From: a virus | Direction: 5' to 3' (one strand) | Virus record (IMG/VR): IMGVR_UViG_3300042509_002091 | Location: 1-30,087 of that record | Length of the DNA: 30,087 bases | Part shown: positions 9,008 to 13,185 of the stretch, piece by piece | How positions within the stretch are numbered: the stretch's first letter is position 1 | Layout of the letters: each line of letters begins with the position of its first letter | Position numbers and translations under genes: made by a program | The notes under the pieces: generated by a model | Databases searched by the model: none | The model's input: the letters and a program-made list of their open reading frames with translations, nothing else | Told to the model about the DNA's origin: nothing

Positions 9008-9688
9008 CTAAGCCGGTGCGCGGCTGTGCCGACTGGCTACCCGCTCAACCTGTTCGATCTCAAATTCCGTGGGTACGGACTGACCGAACAAGCTCAAGAA
9101 TACGCCGATCCGGTCCGGCCTGTCAACCTTGTGGATAAGAGCTTCCACACCCGCGAATGGCCCAACTGTCGGCCTGACCACATCGCCAACCTTGTACGGG
9201 TTCGTCTGCTCAACCTTGAACGGCCCCGCGTTCCGGAATGGCGCTATCTGGCTATCAGGGACGACCGTAGGCAGGCCGTCTTCGGAAACCGACACAATGC
9301 CGAGTATTCCGTCTTCGCCCATCAGCGCCCGCCACAGACGCCCACACATGGCAAGGCGGACGAAGATGTAGCCGGGGAAGTACGCCCGCTCGATGGACTT
9401 GAATTGCAGCTTTCCCCTGGTACGCCCGCGACCGTTCCGGATGGCAAAGGTCAGCTTTTCGATGGGCGTAAACGCCTCGTACTTGTGGGCTATCAGCTTT
9501 TCGACCATCGCCTTTTCGTTTCTAGGCATGGTCTGGACAGCGTACCAGCCCTCCTTGCCTATCCAGCCATCTTGCCCGCTCCCTTGCGATAGAAATAGCC
9601 CACGAGCGCCCTTGCGTGCTTTGGCAAGGCGCTCGACATAATCGGGAAGCTCATACTCTACGCGGTGGCCGAGGCCGGTTGGAGTCAA
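9008..9688 (-). CDS. NusG-family transcription factor (phage paralog, likely antiterminator)
   Basis: A 226-residue protein with both NusG domains. The NGN domain spans about residues 46-132 (GWYAVQTMPRNEKAMVEKL, YFPGYIFVRL, then WRALMGEDGILGIV). A KOW-type SH3 domain lies at about 163-215 (YKVGDVVRPTVGPFAGVEAL, ending FEIEQVERV). The first 45 residues are an extra basic, mostly helical extension. The start is a TTG at 9688 overlapping the previous stop (TTGA), with GGAG 8 bases ahead. NusG paralogs such as RfaH and LoaP bind RNA polymerase and let it read through terminators of chosen operons. Its place, last in the early leftward operon and just ahead of the late genes, is where lambda has Q, so I infer control of late transcription. 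Confidence 0.88.
   Translation of the reverse strand: MTPTGLGHRVEYELPDYVERLAKARKGARGLFLSQGSGQDGWIGKEGWYAVQTMPRNEKAMVEKLIAHKYEAFTPIEKLTFAIRNGRGRTRGKLQFKSIERAYFPGYIFVRLAMCGRLWRALMGEDGILGIVSVSEDGLPTVVPDSQIAPFRNAGPFKVEQTNPYKVGDVVRPTVGPFAGVEALIHKVDRPDRIGVFLSLFGQSVPTEFEIEQVERVASRHSRAPA
9130..9138 (-). promoter_or_regulatory. Perfect DnaA box inside the NusG-paralog gene
   Basis: TTATCCACA on the minus strand, an exact match to the DnaA-box consensus. It codes for part of LIHKV in the KOW domain, so it may be chance. It is one of two exact boxes seen in the window; the other is at 11877-11885 in the same orientation. Confidence 0.4.
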
Positions 9689-9948
9689 GCGGATGGCTCC
9701 TTTGGGAGAATGTCTGCGATATCTCGTATGCAGGCATGGGCAGCATCTACACCTGCCGCCGCTTGATGGTCGCCGCCGTTATTGGCCTCGTCCCAGTCCT
9801 CATAAACAGCACTGCACTTATGCATTGCAGCCTTTAGAGCGTCACGCTGGATAGCGCGGATGAAGCCAGCCACCCCGCCGTATTGTTCGATTAGCTGCGG
9901 GATTTCCGTTTGCTCAAATTCCGCGTGCCATTCCTCTGCGCTTTTCAT
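9685..9948 (-). CDS. Small hypothetical phage protein
   Basis: An 87-residue, acidic, mostly helical protein (KSAEEWHAEFEQTEIPQLIEQ, then FIRAIQRDALKAAMHKCSAVYEDWDEA). Its ATG overlaps the methyltransferase stop and its own stop overlaps the TTG of the NusG paralog, so it is translated between them. Short proteins with an MKSAEEW start are common in phage replication operons, but I know no assigned function. The tight coupling to the NusG paralog is the only hint of a role. Confidence 0.6.
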   Translation of the reverse strand: MKSAEEWHAEFEQTEIPQLIEQYGGVAGFIRAIQRDALKAAMHKCSAVYEDWDEANNGGDHQAAAGVDAAHACIRDIADILPKEPSA

Positions 9949-10622
9949 ATCAAGCTCTCCTGCTTTGGCTTCGGTTGCGGGGCGGGGATGAATAGGTCAG
10001 GCCGCTTTAAGGCGTCCTCTATGCGGCGGCAGGCTATGTCGAAGTATTTCGGCTCGCGCTCGATGCCGATGAACTTGCGACCGAGTTTGACAGCGGCGAG
10101 GCCAGTGCTGGCCGATCCCATAAACGGGTCCAGCACAGTTCCGACGTCGACGGGCAAATGGCCAATAACCCATTCCATGACCGCAAGCGGCTTTTGCGTC
10201 GGGTGAAATTTGCCGCGATAGTCGCCCCGAGCCAGAGGGTCATAAACCAGAGTGCGGGCGTTCATGTTCATGCTGCACCACGCTAACTCGCACTCAGCAT
10301 AGGACCGATTCTTGAACCCCGCTCCCTTGTCCCAAACCAAAAAGCCCCTCGATGGCGGCAGATCAAAATAGTTGCCGCCAAAGATAATTTGATGCCTGCA
10401 TCGTTCACGTATCAGGGCTATATGCGCATGGCCGATTGGTTCATTATCCCAATTGAGCTTCTCAAAATCGTTTGCACCCTTGTAGCCCACGTTGCCGCCG
10501 TCCATCCCAATCCCATACGGCGGATCGGTCACGCAGGCATCGAACTCCCCAAGCGTAGGGAGGATTTCGAGCATGTCGCCCATCCAGCACTCGACCCCAT
10601 CGGCTAGAATTTCCCGCCTCAT
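9945..10622 (-). CDS. DNA adenine-N6 methyltransferase (beta-type motif order)
   Basis: About 225 residues when started at the ATG at 10622, which has GAGG 5 bases ahead and overlaps the preceding stop (ATGA). A longer upstream frame exists but is less likely. Motif IV is DPPYGIG (residues 33-39) and the AdoMet-binding motif I, DPFMGSASTGLAA, comes later (about residue 170); this order is that of beta-class N6-adenine or N4-cytosine enzymes. A GKFHPTQKP segment is also typical. No restriction gene is nearby, so it is an orphan enzyme, probably used to protect phage DNA or to mark control or replication sites. The target sequence cannot be read here. Confidence 0.85.
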   Translation of the reverse strand: MRREILADGVECWMGDMLEILPTLGEFDACVTDPPYGIGMDGGNVGYKGANDFEKLNWDNEPIGHAHIALIRERCRHQIIFGGNYFDLPPSRGFLVWDKGAGFKNRSYAECELAWCSMNMNARTLVYDPLARGDYRGKFHPTQKPLAVMEWVIGHLPVDVGTVLDPFMGSASTGLAAVKLGRKFIGIEREPKYFDIACRRIEDALKRPDLFIPAPQPKPKQESLI

Positions 10623-10792
10623 GCCTGCCTCGCGCAAATGAACTCGCCCAATGCACTCCACCGCCCATGCACAGGGCCAAGCGGCCACAGTTTGAACCCG
10701 CACCACCAGACCTGACAGAACAAGCCGTGCTTACCCTTCTCAAACTTGCCCGCCTCATGCAGCGGTATGTAGCGGATGAAGTCGCGGTTCAT
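10619..10792 (-). CDS. 57-residue Trp/Cys-rich small protein
   Basis: A small frame starting MNRDFIRYIPLHEAGKFEKG. Its ATG (10792) overlaps the stop of the replication protein (ATGA) and its TGA overlaps the methyltransferase start (ATGA), so it fits the operon exactly. The middle has CQVWWCGFKLWPLG, rich in Trp and Cys, which could be a small folded or zinc-associated motif. I do not recognise it. The perfect fit between its neighbours is the main support for its being real. Confidence 0.5.
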   Translation of the reverse strand: MNRDFIRYIPLHEAGKFEKGKHGLFCQVWWCGFKLWPLGPVHGRWSALGEFICARQA

Positions 10793-11499
10793 GCTGCACC
10801 TAGTTGCTGTTCTGGCGGAAACTCGCTCGGAAATACCCATCCGTCCGCCTTGTGGTCTTTCGAGAACGTGGTCGGCAGCGTCTTGCCCCGATACACCTGC
10901 CAAGCGTGCCAAGCCTCCGTGTCCTTCGCCACGAACACCTGACCGGGGCGCTCAATCGGACCAGGGGGCAGGTTTGACGCCGAAGTGATCGACGCAGGCT
11001 GGTCTAGCCACCGATCCTGATTGAGCCACGTCGATGGGTTGCACCACGCCCGGTCATCCGGCTTTCCGGCGATGTACCGCCGCAGGCCGTCCAGCATCGG
11101 GGCCAACTCCGACCGCTTCCGAGCGCGTTCGAACGCTTTCAGCGCATCCGCCTTGCCGACCTTGTGCGGATAGGCTGGCCAAAACTGATTTTCGAATTCG
11201 AGAGCGAGCGAAGCGCGTTCACGCGCGTTTTTTTCGGGGGGAGGGTTTGGGGGATTATAGGGGGGGGTGTGGGGGGGGGAAAAAGGGGGAAGGGAGGGGG
11301 GTGCTTTTTCTGCGGAATCTGCGGAATTCTGCGGAATGTTATTGCGCTTACGTTCCCTGTCAGCAGCGCGACGGCGTTCTGCCTGCTCGTCCTTAATGAC
11401 AACAGCATCGCGCTTCGCAAGTGCCTCCGCAACGCGACCAACCAATTCAGGGTCAGTCCCGGCGCGAACGAGGTCTGCTATCAGGGAAGCAACGCTCAT
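10789..11499 (-). CDS. O-like phage replication protein
   Basis: A 236-residue protein in three parts. The N-terminus (1-60) is helical and ends in a basic run (AERRRAADRERKRN). Residues of about 65-95 are a proline-rich linker (LPPFSPPHTPPYNPPNPPP). The C-terminal half has FWPAYPHKVGKADALKAFERARK, GLRRYIAGKP and WCNPSTWLNQDRWLD, a domain I know from replication proteins of alphaproteobacterial phages. A second short motif, EAWHAWQVYRGKTLPTTF followed by GWVFPSEFPP, ends the protein. I infer an origin-binding or helicase-loading role by position and resemblance. No DnaB-like helicase or primase is present, so the host replisome is probably recruited. Confidence 0.6.
   Translation of the reverse strand: MSVASLIADLVRAGTDPELVGRVAEALAKRDAVVIKDEQAERRRAADRERKRNNIPQNSADSAEKAPPSLPPFSPPHTPPYNPPNPPPEKNARERASLALEFENQFWPAYPHKVGKADALKAFERARKRSELAPMLDGLRRYIAGKPDDRAWCNPSTWLNQDRWLDQPASITSASNLPPGPIERPGQVFVAKDTEAWHAWQVYRGKTLPTTFSKDHKADGWVFPSEFPPEQQLGAA
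11236..11301 (+). other. Tract of G-runs with quadruplex potential
   Basis: Eight runs of G (lengths 6, 3, 5, 8, 9, 5, 3 and 6) separated by short A/T-containing spacers on the plus strand, that is, C-runs on the coding strand. It encodes the proline-rich linker of the replication protein. The density of runs far exceeds what proline codons require. It could form G-quadruplexes or act as a purine tract at an origin. Confidence 0.5.
11310..11337. repeat. Three 9-bp direct repeats (iteron-like)
   Basis: CTGCGGAAT occurs at 11310-11318, 11319-11327 and 11329-11337. The third copy is shifted by one base relative to the codon frame, so the repetition is at DNA level rather than a protein repeat. 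It lies next to the G-tract within the replication gene, a place that would suit an origin, as the iterons of lambda lie within gene O. Confidence 0.4.
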
Positions 11500-12011
11500 T
11501 CAGTTGCTTCCTTCGCCTTGCGGTCACGCATCTTGTGGTAGGCGTGCACTAAAGATGAGTGGTCCCGGTTCATAATCTTCCCCATTTGCGGGAAGCTCAG
11601 CATGGTTTCGTTCTTGATCCGCCAGACGCATTGGTGGCGGGCTTCGACAATGTTATTGTTCCGGCGAATGGACAGAATGTCTTTGACTGTAACCTGATAT
11701 TCTTCCGCGACTTCGGCTATAATGTCGCGAGCGGTCTTGCGCTTCTTGCCATGTGGCGGCCAGTCTTGGCCTTGTTCGTCATCAGATGGTCGAAGCAAAT
11801 CAGTCATAGCTAAATTTATAACATCGCGAGGCCCCTGAAAACGCTGTGGCGCAACTACTTCTTGTTTCTCCAAACGTGTGGATAACTTGTTCATGTACGA
11901 GGCGCGCTTGCGTGCTTCTATCTCTCGCGCCCTGCGCAGTATCGAATCCACATCGCCTATCTCGGCTGCTGTTGGCTTGAGGGCGTTTACCCGTGTGGCG
12001 AGCGTACTCAT
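11496..12011 (-). CDS. Stand-alone DnaA domain IV (DnaA-box binding) protein
   Basis: A 171-residue protein without any AAA+ ATPase domain. Residues of about 94-165 match DnaA domain IV: ARDIIAEVAEEYQVTVKDIL, then RRNNNIVEARHQCVWRIK, FPQMGKIMNRDHSSLVHAY. The RDHSS segment aligns with the DnaA signature RDHTT/RDHST that contacts the DnaA box. The N-terminal 90 residues are charged and contain no known domain. Overlaps with both neighbouring genes (ATGA) place it in the replication operon. I infer that it binds DnaA boxes to help start phage replication or to compete with host DnaA. A perfect DnaA box lies within its own gene. Confidence 0.82.
   Translation of the reverse strand: MSTLATRVNALKPTAAEIGDVDSILRRAREIEARKRASYMNKLSTRLEKQEVVAPQRFQGPRDVINLAMTDLLRPSDDEQGQDWPPHGKKRKTARDIIAEVAEEYQVTVKDILSIRRNNNIVEARHQCVWRIKNETMLSFPQMGKIMNRDHSSLVHAYHKMRDRKAKEATE
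11877..11885 (-). promoter_or_regulatory. Perfect DnaA box inside the DnaA-domain gene
   Basis: TTATCCACA on the minus strand, spanning codons for the KLST part of NKLSTR. It exactly matches the DnaA-box consensus and sits inside the gene for a DnaA domain IV protein, about 540 bp from the CTGCGGAAT repeats. It is a candidate binding site for that protein or for host DnaA. Confidence 0.5.
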
Positions 12012-12397
12012 GGATGCAAAACCTCCGTTACTTGGACACCGTAGTAGAGTTCGAACGCCTTCTTGCGGAGGCGATAAGCAGGGTCTTTGCGCGTGCCCGA
12101 CGACTTCACATCTTCAAATACTTGTTGGCCTGTAGCAGTCACGTATTCAGCGTCAGGCGTGTATTTCGTGTAGAAGCCGCCGTTAATCTCAATGGGGTAA
12201 CTTTTCTTGCGGGTTAGCTGGCTAATCAGCCCCGCCATTTGCTTGATCCGCAAGTTCTGCCAGCGCAGCATTTCCCGCTTACTGTCAAACGTCTCACCGT
12301 CCAATGTGCGGTCAGCCTTCGGCGCGCGTGGATAGCGGCCTTTCTTGGCAGGCTTTGCTTGTTCTAGGTATTGCGCGGGCGTCATGTGTTCTGTCAT
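12008..12397 (-). CDS. DUF1064 nuclease (PD-(D/E)XK fold)
   Basis: A 129-residue protein. It has DSKREMLRWQNLRIKQMAGLI (the F-x-SK-E-type N-terminal helix), then YTPDAEYVTATGQQVFEDVKS with the Asp and the E-x-K pair of a PD-(D/E)XK nuclease, and RLRKKAFELYYGVQVTEV. This is the DUF1064 pattern, a family found in phage replication modules and thought to act on branched or recombination DNA, similar in place to Holliday-junction resolvases. It overlaps the ParB gene start side and the DnaA-domain gene. The catalytic role is inferred from the motif only. Confidence 0.78.
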   Translation of the reverse strand: MTEHMTPAQYLEQAKPAKKGRYPRAPKADRTLDGETFDSKREMLRWQNLRIKQMAGLISQLTRKKSYPIEINGGFYTKYTPDAEYVTATGQQVFEDVKSSGTRKDPAYRLRKKAFELYYGVQVTEVLHP

Positions 12398-13185
12398 GGC
12401 TGCGCAATCCTCCGCATCGCAGCGATGACTTCCTTTGGCTTCGTGCCCTCAAGCCATGAAATGATGGTCGGCATTTCGGAGAGGTCAGTGCGCGCCATAA
12501 TCCAATTGGCGAAGTCCTCCGCAGCCGTCAGCTTGATTACCGCGTCAGTGTCGCGGTTCAGGGCCTCCGCCTCTTTGCGGGCCTTCTCTGCCTCACGGCG
12601 GGCATGTTCAGCGCGAAGGAACGCAACGTCATCCGGGGCGCGACGAGCGGCCTCTAACACCGCCTGATTATCATCAAGGCCGGTCTCTTTCGCCGCCGCC
12701 TTTGCTTCGTCAGAGAGCTTATCAACTGTAACAGCGCGCCGCACTGTTCGTTCTGGCAAGTTCAATTCACGAGCAGCGTGAGACGCATCGCCGGGCCTGC
12801 CCGCCCGAGTTTCGGCCAAGTTGGCCGAAAGTCTTACCCATTCCGCAATGTGTTCCGACCGTTGCAAGGCTGTAAGTTCCGCCCGATGCAGGTTTTCCGA
12901 TATCTCCCACATGCGGGCTTCGTCGTCGCTTTCGTGGTCAACGACAAAGCATTCGATCTGCTGCCAGCCGATGGCCTTTGCGGCTTCCAGCCTGTGTAGG
13001 CCGGAAACCAGCATTGGTTCGCTGATAGCATCCGCATCCATCATGCGAACGGTTATCGGAGTGCGCAGACCGATTTTCTCAATCGACGCCCGCAACGAAG
13101 CAACCGCTTCCGGGTTTACTTGTCTGAGGCGGTCCCCAAGTTGAATAGCGTCAACGTCAATAAGTTCGGTCTTGCGCGCAAGCAT
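12394..13185 (-). CDS. ParB-family DNA-binding protein
   Basis: A 263-residue protein. The ParB N-terminal domain shows LGDRLRQVNPEAVASLRASI, LRTPITVR and the box SGLHRLEAAKAIGW (residues 61-74), with ISENLHRAELTALQRSEHI following. An HTH comes next (HAARELNLPERTVRRAV), and a long charged helix (about 175-215) leads to a C-terminal segment with NWIMARTDLSEMPTIISWL. Plasmid and phage ParB proteins bind centromere-like sites, and many such phage proteins are regulators instead. No ParA gene is in the window, so partition is not supported. The neighbouring gene encodes a second ParB-like fold. Confidence 0.82.
   Translation of the reverse strand: MLARKTELIDVDAIQLGDRLRQVNPEAVASLRASIEKIGLRTPITVRMMDADAISEPMLVSGLHRLEAAKAIGWQQIECFVVDHESDDEARMWEISENLHRAELTALQRSEHIAEWVRLSANLAETRAGRPGDASHAARELNLPERTVRRAVTVDKLSDEAKAAAKETGLDDNQAVLEAARRAPDDVAFLRAEHARREAEKARKEAEALNRDTDAVIKLTAAEDFANWIMARTDLSEMPTIISWLEGTKPKEVIAAMRRIAQP

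Follow-up and report, generated by a model that had tools for sequence, protein, structure and literature searches.

A stand-alone DnaA domain IV gene among phage replication genes

We analysed a 30,087-nucleotide stretch of viral DNA (IMG/VR record IMGVR_UViG_3300042509_002091, positions 1 to 30,087; hereafter the window). The gene of interest, which encodes the protein P0001 and is here called the DnaA-C gene, lies in an overlapping minus-strand run that passes from ParB-like, DUF1064, DnaA-C and O-like genes on to genes for a methyltransferase, a NusG-like antiterminator, terminase and portal. The features discussed below are as follows:

9008..9688, minus strand: NusG-like transcription antiterminator (Pfam/PHROGs), in the same run as the replication genes
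9130..9138, minus strand: exact DnaA box TTATCCACA inside the NusG-like gene 9008-9688; probably coincidental
9945..10706, minus strand: N6/N4 DNA methyltransferase (Pfam/PHROGs)
10789..11499, minus strand: O-like replication initiation protein or replisome organiser P0002, 236 aa (phrog_270, 1.2e-18; phrog_9327, 8.9e-17)
11236..11301, plus strand: oligo-G tract, eight G runs of 3-9, beside the iterons
11308..11337: three iterons TTCTGCGGAAT (one with a mismatch) in the middle of the O-like gene; candidate phage origin
11496..12011, minus strand: DnaA-C gene, P0001, 171 aa; stand-alone DnaA domain IV (Pfam, PHROGs, AF2, Foldseek)
11877..11885, minus strand: exact TTATCCACA inside the DnaA-C gene, in frame and coding Leu43-Ser44-Thr45; probably coincidental
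12008..12397, minus strand: DUF1064 resolvase-like gene (Pfam/PHROGs), with a 4-nt overlap with the DnaA-C gene
12394..13185, minus strand: ParB-like protein (Pfam/PHROGs), in the same gene run as the replication genes

P0001 matched the Pfam profile Bac_DnaA_C (PF08299) at 59 bits against a curated cut-off of 31.5 (E = 4.8e-16). This was its sole Pfam match at E up to 0.1, and neither an AAA+ ATPase domain III nor any other part of domains I-III was found. Among PHROGs profiles, phrog_27829 matched residues 98-157 (3.9e-6, 27.8 bits), and the closest solved structure by sequence was E. coli DnaA domain IV (1j1v, 1.5e-6). An AF2 model built from 44 sequences placed five confident helices with high pLDDT in domain IV (residues 93-170), joined by a flexible linker to a less certain N-terminal part with a predicted helix at residues 21-50. 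The top PDB matches of this model in Foldseek were the DnaA-DNA complexes 3pvp and 1j1v (rmsd 0.8-0.9 over 73-76 columns). The N-terminal part of about 90 aa had no detectable relative among the fetched loci searched. The initial annotation had read P0001 as a DnaA-box-binding domain without the ATPase domain, and the Pfam, PHROGs and 1j1v matches and the predicted fold bear this out: P0001 is related to DnaA through domain IV only, and its gene belongs to a phage replication module.

To compare DNA-contact residues we used the E. coli DnaA contact positions given in excerpts of PMC5043019 and PMC5742627. P0001 shares the fold of E. coli and M. tuberculosis DnaA domain IV (1j1v, 3pvp) and retains R399, R407, P423, R432, D433 and H434 (E. 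coli numbering); it differs from these proteins in having no domains I-III found and in carrying His for Q408 and Ser for T435. Retention was high among 86 distinct stand-alone proteins, defined here as frames under 400 aa (R399 in 76 of 86, R407 in 86, D433 in 83 and H434 in 82). Judged by these residues, P0001 likely binds DnaA-box-like sites. Q408, in contrast, is kept in only 26 of the 86 stand-alone proteins (38 have His), whereas 23 of 24 full-length DnaA proteins have Gln; the specificity of P0001 and of stand-alone DnaA-C proteins more generally may therefore have shifted. In TnpA-REP-like HuH transposases, which likewise show Bac_DnaA_C re-used by a mobile element, the proteins with such a tail have terminal repeats unlike DnaA boxes, according to excerpts of PMC6006769; these tails are a possible precedent for altered specificity.

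Stand-alone phage DnaA-C proteins are a kind already catalogued, as phrog_27829, and annotated in Rhizobium and Aurantimonas phages. PHROG 27829, a phage family of DnaA-like replication initiation proteins, resembles P0001 in being a small phage protein made of Bac_DnaA_C; its profile spans 72 positions, against the 171 aa of P0001 with its additional N-terminal part. One scan confirmed 248 candidate stretches as DnaA-C relatives, some full-length DnaA among them, and all nine tblastn matches of P0001 were below 60% identity. Our searches of the open-licence literature turned up no work on the function of a stand-alone DnaA-C protein from phages.

The genomic setting recurs in other phages. 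In the window, the DnaA-C gene overlaps both the DUF1064 gene and the start of the O-like gene by 4 nt. Record MW202613 shares the order DnaA-C, replisome organiser, methyltransferase, terminase; in Rhizobium phages RHph_N28_2 and TM3_3_3 the DnaA-C gene follows DUF1064 and DUF1376, and in Aurantimonas phage AmM-1 it lies directly 5' of a primase; in all four, as here, it belongs to a replication operon. The gene was also found in ppBeUSDA76-2 and RHph_I1_23. Where a stand-alone DnaA-C gene was paired with an O-like gene, all 26 distinct pairs lay on the same strand, a placement expected in phage early operons anyway, and 22 of the 26 were less than 2 kb apart. At 38 further DnaA-C loci without an O-like neighbour we examined 113 large nearby ORFs, which included primases (two families, 8 and 4), helicases (6 and 4), primosomal proteins (4 and 3), O-like proteins (4) and methyltransferases, one ORF being able to match several families in these counts. 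Conversely, within the stretch examined, only 12 of 64 O-like loci held a DnaA-C gene; O-like modules therefore do not need DnaA-C. Stand-alone DnaA-C proteins recur in phages, and their replication-module setting offers a tractable test of the ways in which phages interact with the control of initiation in the host.

The closest O-like relatives in named genomes were mostly from Rhizobiales (for example, Martelella and Rhizobium), which hints at the host. One contig 99.9% identical to the window (L212) lacks the stretch of gene 9685-9948 (window 9689-9953), a gap that is mosaic variation in this virus.

Exact DnaA boxes in the window and across relatives

The two exact copies of TTATCCACA reported in the initial annotation, at 11877-11885 and 9130-9138 in the same orientation, are both present; they are the only two in the window, both on the minus strand, 2.7 kb apart and in two different coding genes. 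Dinucleotide shuffles gave 0.12 expected boxes and two or more in 1 of 100 shuffles, and synonymous-codon shuffles of the 35 window ORFs gave 0.144 expected boxes, two or more in 3 of 1000 and a box inside the DnaA-C gene in 1 of 1000; these small p-values are post hoc, the choice of motif having followed the reading of the sequence. In the in-gene box, leucine is encoded by TTA, a rare choice that accounts for 4% of 554 Leu codons. Near-matches showed no excess in the window (allowing at most one mismatch to TTATNCACA, 12 sites against 12.8 expected), and no datA-like cluster of DnaA boxes was found there, only two single exact boxes. Two exact boxes in one window are mildly unusual.

We then assembled a set of phage records together with viral loci, of which 80 contain a DnaA-C-like stretch and 64 an O-like gene. 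For the box counts, stand-alone proteins were taken as frames under 350 aa, giving 87 loci including the window, or 70 after removal of near-duplicates (the window and 69 others). An exact box inside the DnaA-C gene occurred in 1 of these 70, the window alone, with 0.12 expected over all 70, and the box as a conserved operator was rejected. Within 500 bases of DnaA-C genes we saw no enrichment, with 1 exact box against 0.58 expected and 4 relaxed words against 5.3. In the flanks of the 69 DnaA-C loci there were 8 exact boxes against 3.1 expected (relaxed TTWTNCACA, 39 against 38.0), and in those of 47 O-like loci without DnaA-C there were 4 against 1.6 (relaxed, 15 against 20.9); since the exact-box surplus is present in both sets, it is not tied to the DnaA-C gene.

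The searches made found no close relatives for a direct test of box conservation. A viral scan with the P0001 protein gave no confirmed relative; with an E-value limit of 1e-9, scans of 385 genomes of the class and 397 of the order yielded 6 and 10 matches, with a best identity of 45%, and the frame length of several marks them as full-length DnaA. A search with an exact 27-mer from the DnaA-C gene returned no match, and the near-identical contigs L211 and L212 stop short of the gene. Four of 80 loci found through the terminase keep a DnaA-C gene (L214, L227, L228 and L234), and the examined stretches of these four contained no exact box; nor did those of L004 and L195-L198.

Whole-record counts covered a selection of 50 DnaA-C-bearing records from the loci, mostly but not all longer contigs, and 36 comparison records in whose examined stretch no DnaA-C was detected (34 O-like loci and phage records L201 and L291). 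The former held 29 boxes against 11 reversed-word controls, the latter 7 against 5. Fourteen of the 29 boxes sit in four related records (G786, G793, G794 and W01); without these, the count was 15 boxes against 10 controls in 46 records, and the excess was rejected as a real signal because it rests on one related phage group. Part of the 14 boxes, though not all, could be traced to a head-tail adaptor-like gene whose coding sequence is homologous among these records. The same origin accounts for an inverted pair, TTATCCACA-N5-TGTGGATAA, found in G786 and twice in G794 and considered as a dimer site; we rejected it as homologous head-tail adaptor-like coding sequence. The inverted exact-box pair lies in the adaptor-like gene of related phages at these positions:

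L293, 1886-1908: TTATCCACA-N5-TGTGGATAA
L294, 1825-1847: TTATCCACA-N5-TGTGGATAA
L295, 1896-1918: TTATCCACA-N5-TGTGGATAA

A link between DnaA boxes and the DnaA-C protein is thus not supported. The initial annotation had suggested the boxes as targets or as a titration device, and this is not borne out: among the 70 loci the in-gene box is confined to the window, the four terminase-lineage relatives that keep such a gene have none in the stretch examined, nearby enrichment is absent, and the surplus in phage records disappears once one related group is removed. The exact box inside the DnaA-C gene is most likely a chance match, not an operator.

Iterons within O-like genes

The iterons at 11308-11337 start 9-10 bp apart, and three copies of an 8-mer within 60 bases arose in 2 of 2000 synonymous shuffles. 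The adjoining oligo-G tract fits a G-quadruplex pattern, and its complement codes for a Pro-rich linker of the O-like protein. The N-terminal part of P0002 is predicted to contain a long helix (residues 17-54) but no winged helix.

Iterons in the 5' part of the gene were present in 31 of 59 distinct O-like genes, against 0.4 expected by shuffling, and in 0 of 59 length-matched control parts running from the domain onwards; the repeat sequences differ between phages. They occur with and without a DnaA-C gene: the 10 kb contig of L006 contains iterons like those of the window but no DnaA-C gene. The arrangement resembles that of lambda, where iterons lie inside the O gene (described in excerpts of PMC7466680); the window has three, in mid-gene. 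It is unlike lambda in the 9-10 bp spacing and in that no AT-rich stretch was seen beside the window iterons, an oligo-G/C tract standing there instead. From its sequence, the cluster at 11308-11337 is likely to be the phage origin and a likelier candidate than the DnaA boxes. Recurrent iterons in O-like genes offer concrete origin predictions for many phages, mostly alphaproteobacterial where the host is named.

Two further features of O-like genes were seen. A hairpin of the CCCC-TAAA-GGGG type occurs in the linker-coding part of 14 of 59 distinct genes (L006, L007, L008, L012, L013, L015, L017, L021, L023, L024, L026, L027, L029 and L030) and not in the window. Its outer stem pair changes on both sides in L006 and L015 (to A-T) and L024 (to G-C) and is mismatched in L007 and L030; the hairpin may serve at an origin or in priming. 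Very short O-like proteins, of about 110-150 aa with little beyond the C-terminal domain, were found in L078, L087, L120, L121, L135, L145 and RHph_Y25 (L201).

Possible roles of the DnaA-C protein

The explanation we favour, and hold to be about evenly balanced between right and wrong, is that P0001 binds DNA as an accessory protein in a phage replication module of the O type. Such a role would bring together the domain IV without ATPase, the main contact residues, the overlapping run of replication genes, the in-gene iterons and the recurrent setting in related phages, all of which are observed. In such a scheme the targets of P0001 would be DnaA-box-related 9-mers, which it might bind as a dimer or while tethered by its N-terminal helix, and it would help the O-like protein to start phage replication or couple it to host DnaA sites, while the iterons within the O-like gene likely serve as the origin. 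The initial annotation had proposed that P0001 may start phage replication. A replication role is likely, given its relationship to DnaA through domain IV alone and the place of its gene in a phage replication module; what lacks support is that the two boxes are its targets, and the iterons are the better origin candidate.

The likelihoods given to this explanation and to its rivals overlap and need not sum to one. P0001 might instead serve host take-over: lacking an ATPase, it would occupy host DnaA boxes at oriC and DnaA-controlled promoters, so that host initiation is blocked and host replication proteins become available to the phage. The contact residues for TTATNCACA are largely retained, and phages show no reproducible box cluster, so that the targets may be on the host; there is also a precedent for action on host initiation by a prophage protein in YfdR of an E. 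coli cryptic prophage, which binds DnaA according to excerpts of PMC4776307. Placement in replication operons beside O-like, primase or helicase genes nevertheless fits a role on phage DNA at least equally well, and we regard host take-over as rather unlikely. A transcription factor of the phage early operon, regulating its own gene or its neighbours from DnaA-box-like operators, would suit the helix-turn-helix fold and the exact boxes in its own gene and in an antiterminator gene. Only 1 of 70 loci has the in-gene box, and both window boxes are within coding genes and not in intergenic promoter regions; this speaks against such a regulator, which we rate as unlikely. If the two boxes themselves were functional, in autoregulation, tethering or titration of host DnaA, one might point to two exact copies exceeding chance at about 0.003-0.01, to their shared position on the coding strand and to the rare TTA codon; yet they are not common to relatives, they are only two and unclustered, near-matches are at chance and the motif was chosen post hoc, all of which makes functional boxes very improbable.

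A split initiator, in which a DnaA domain IV protein lends origin recognition to an O-like partner without a winged-helix domain of its own, drew on O-like proteins with just 12-30 aa before the conserved domain beside DnaA-C in L078, L087, L120, L121, L135 and L145, and on the predicted structure of P0002, with its long N-terminal helix. Those six loci, however, came from the DnaA-C search, so DnaA-C is present in them by construction. Among new C-only loci from the O-based scan, DnaA-C was present in L204 and L208 but not in L205, and C-only O-like genes also stand without DnaA-C in RHph_Y25 and, in the stretch examined, in L231, L241 and L284; their existence weakens the idea. Long O-like proteins co-occur with DnaA-C too, and we judge a split initiator quite improbable. 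Equally doubtful is a broader proposal, that phages employ DnaA domain IV as an interchangeable module for origin recognition, carried on a separate polypeptide, working with O-like proteins that recruit helicase and aimed at a target near an in-gene iteron origin; its specificity would have shifted from TTATCCACA, because Q408 is lost in most of the proteins. The accessory role in an O-type module is the explanation we retain.

Two observations concern related phages. In L003, L073, L079, L081 and L084, one related phage group, the stand-alone DnaA-C gene has repeat clusters of the TTAGGGCAA, ACTACCCAA and AATGTAAAC types some 2.5-3.2 kb upstream, possibly the real DnaA-C targets there. Record G794 (72555 bases) apparently holds two similar, non-identical copies of one phage, about 37.4 kb apart.
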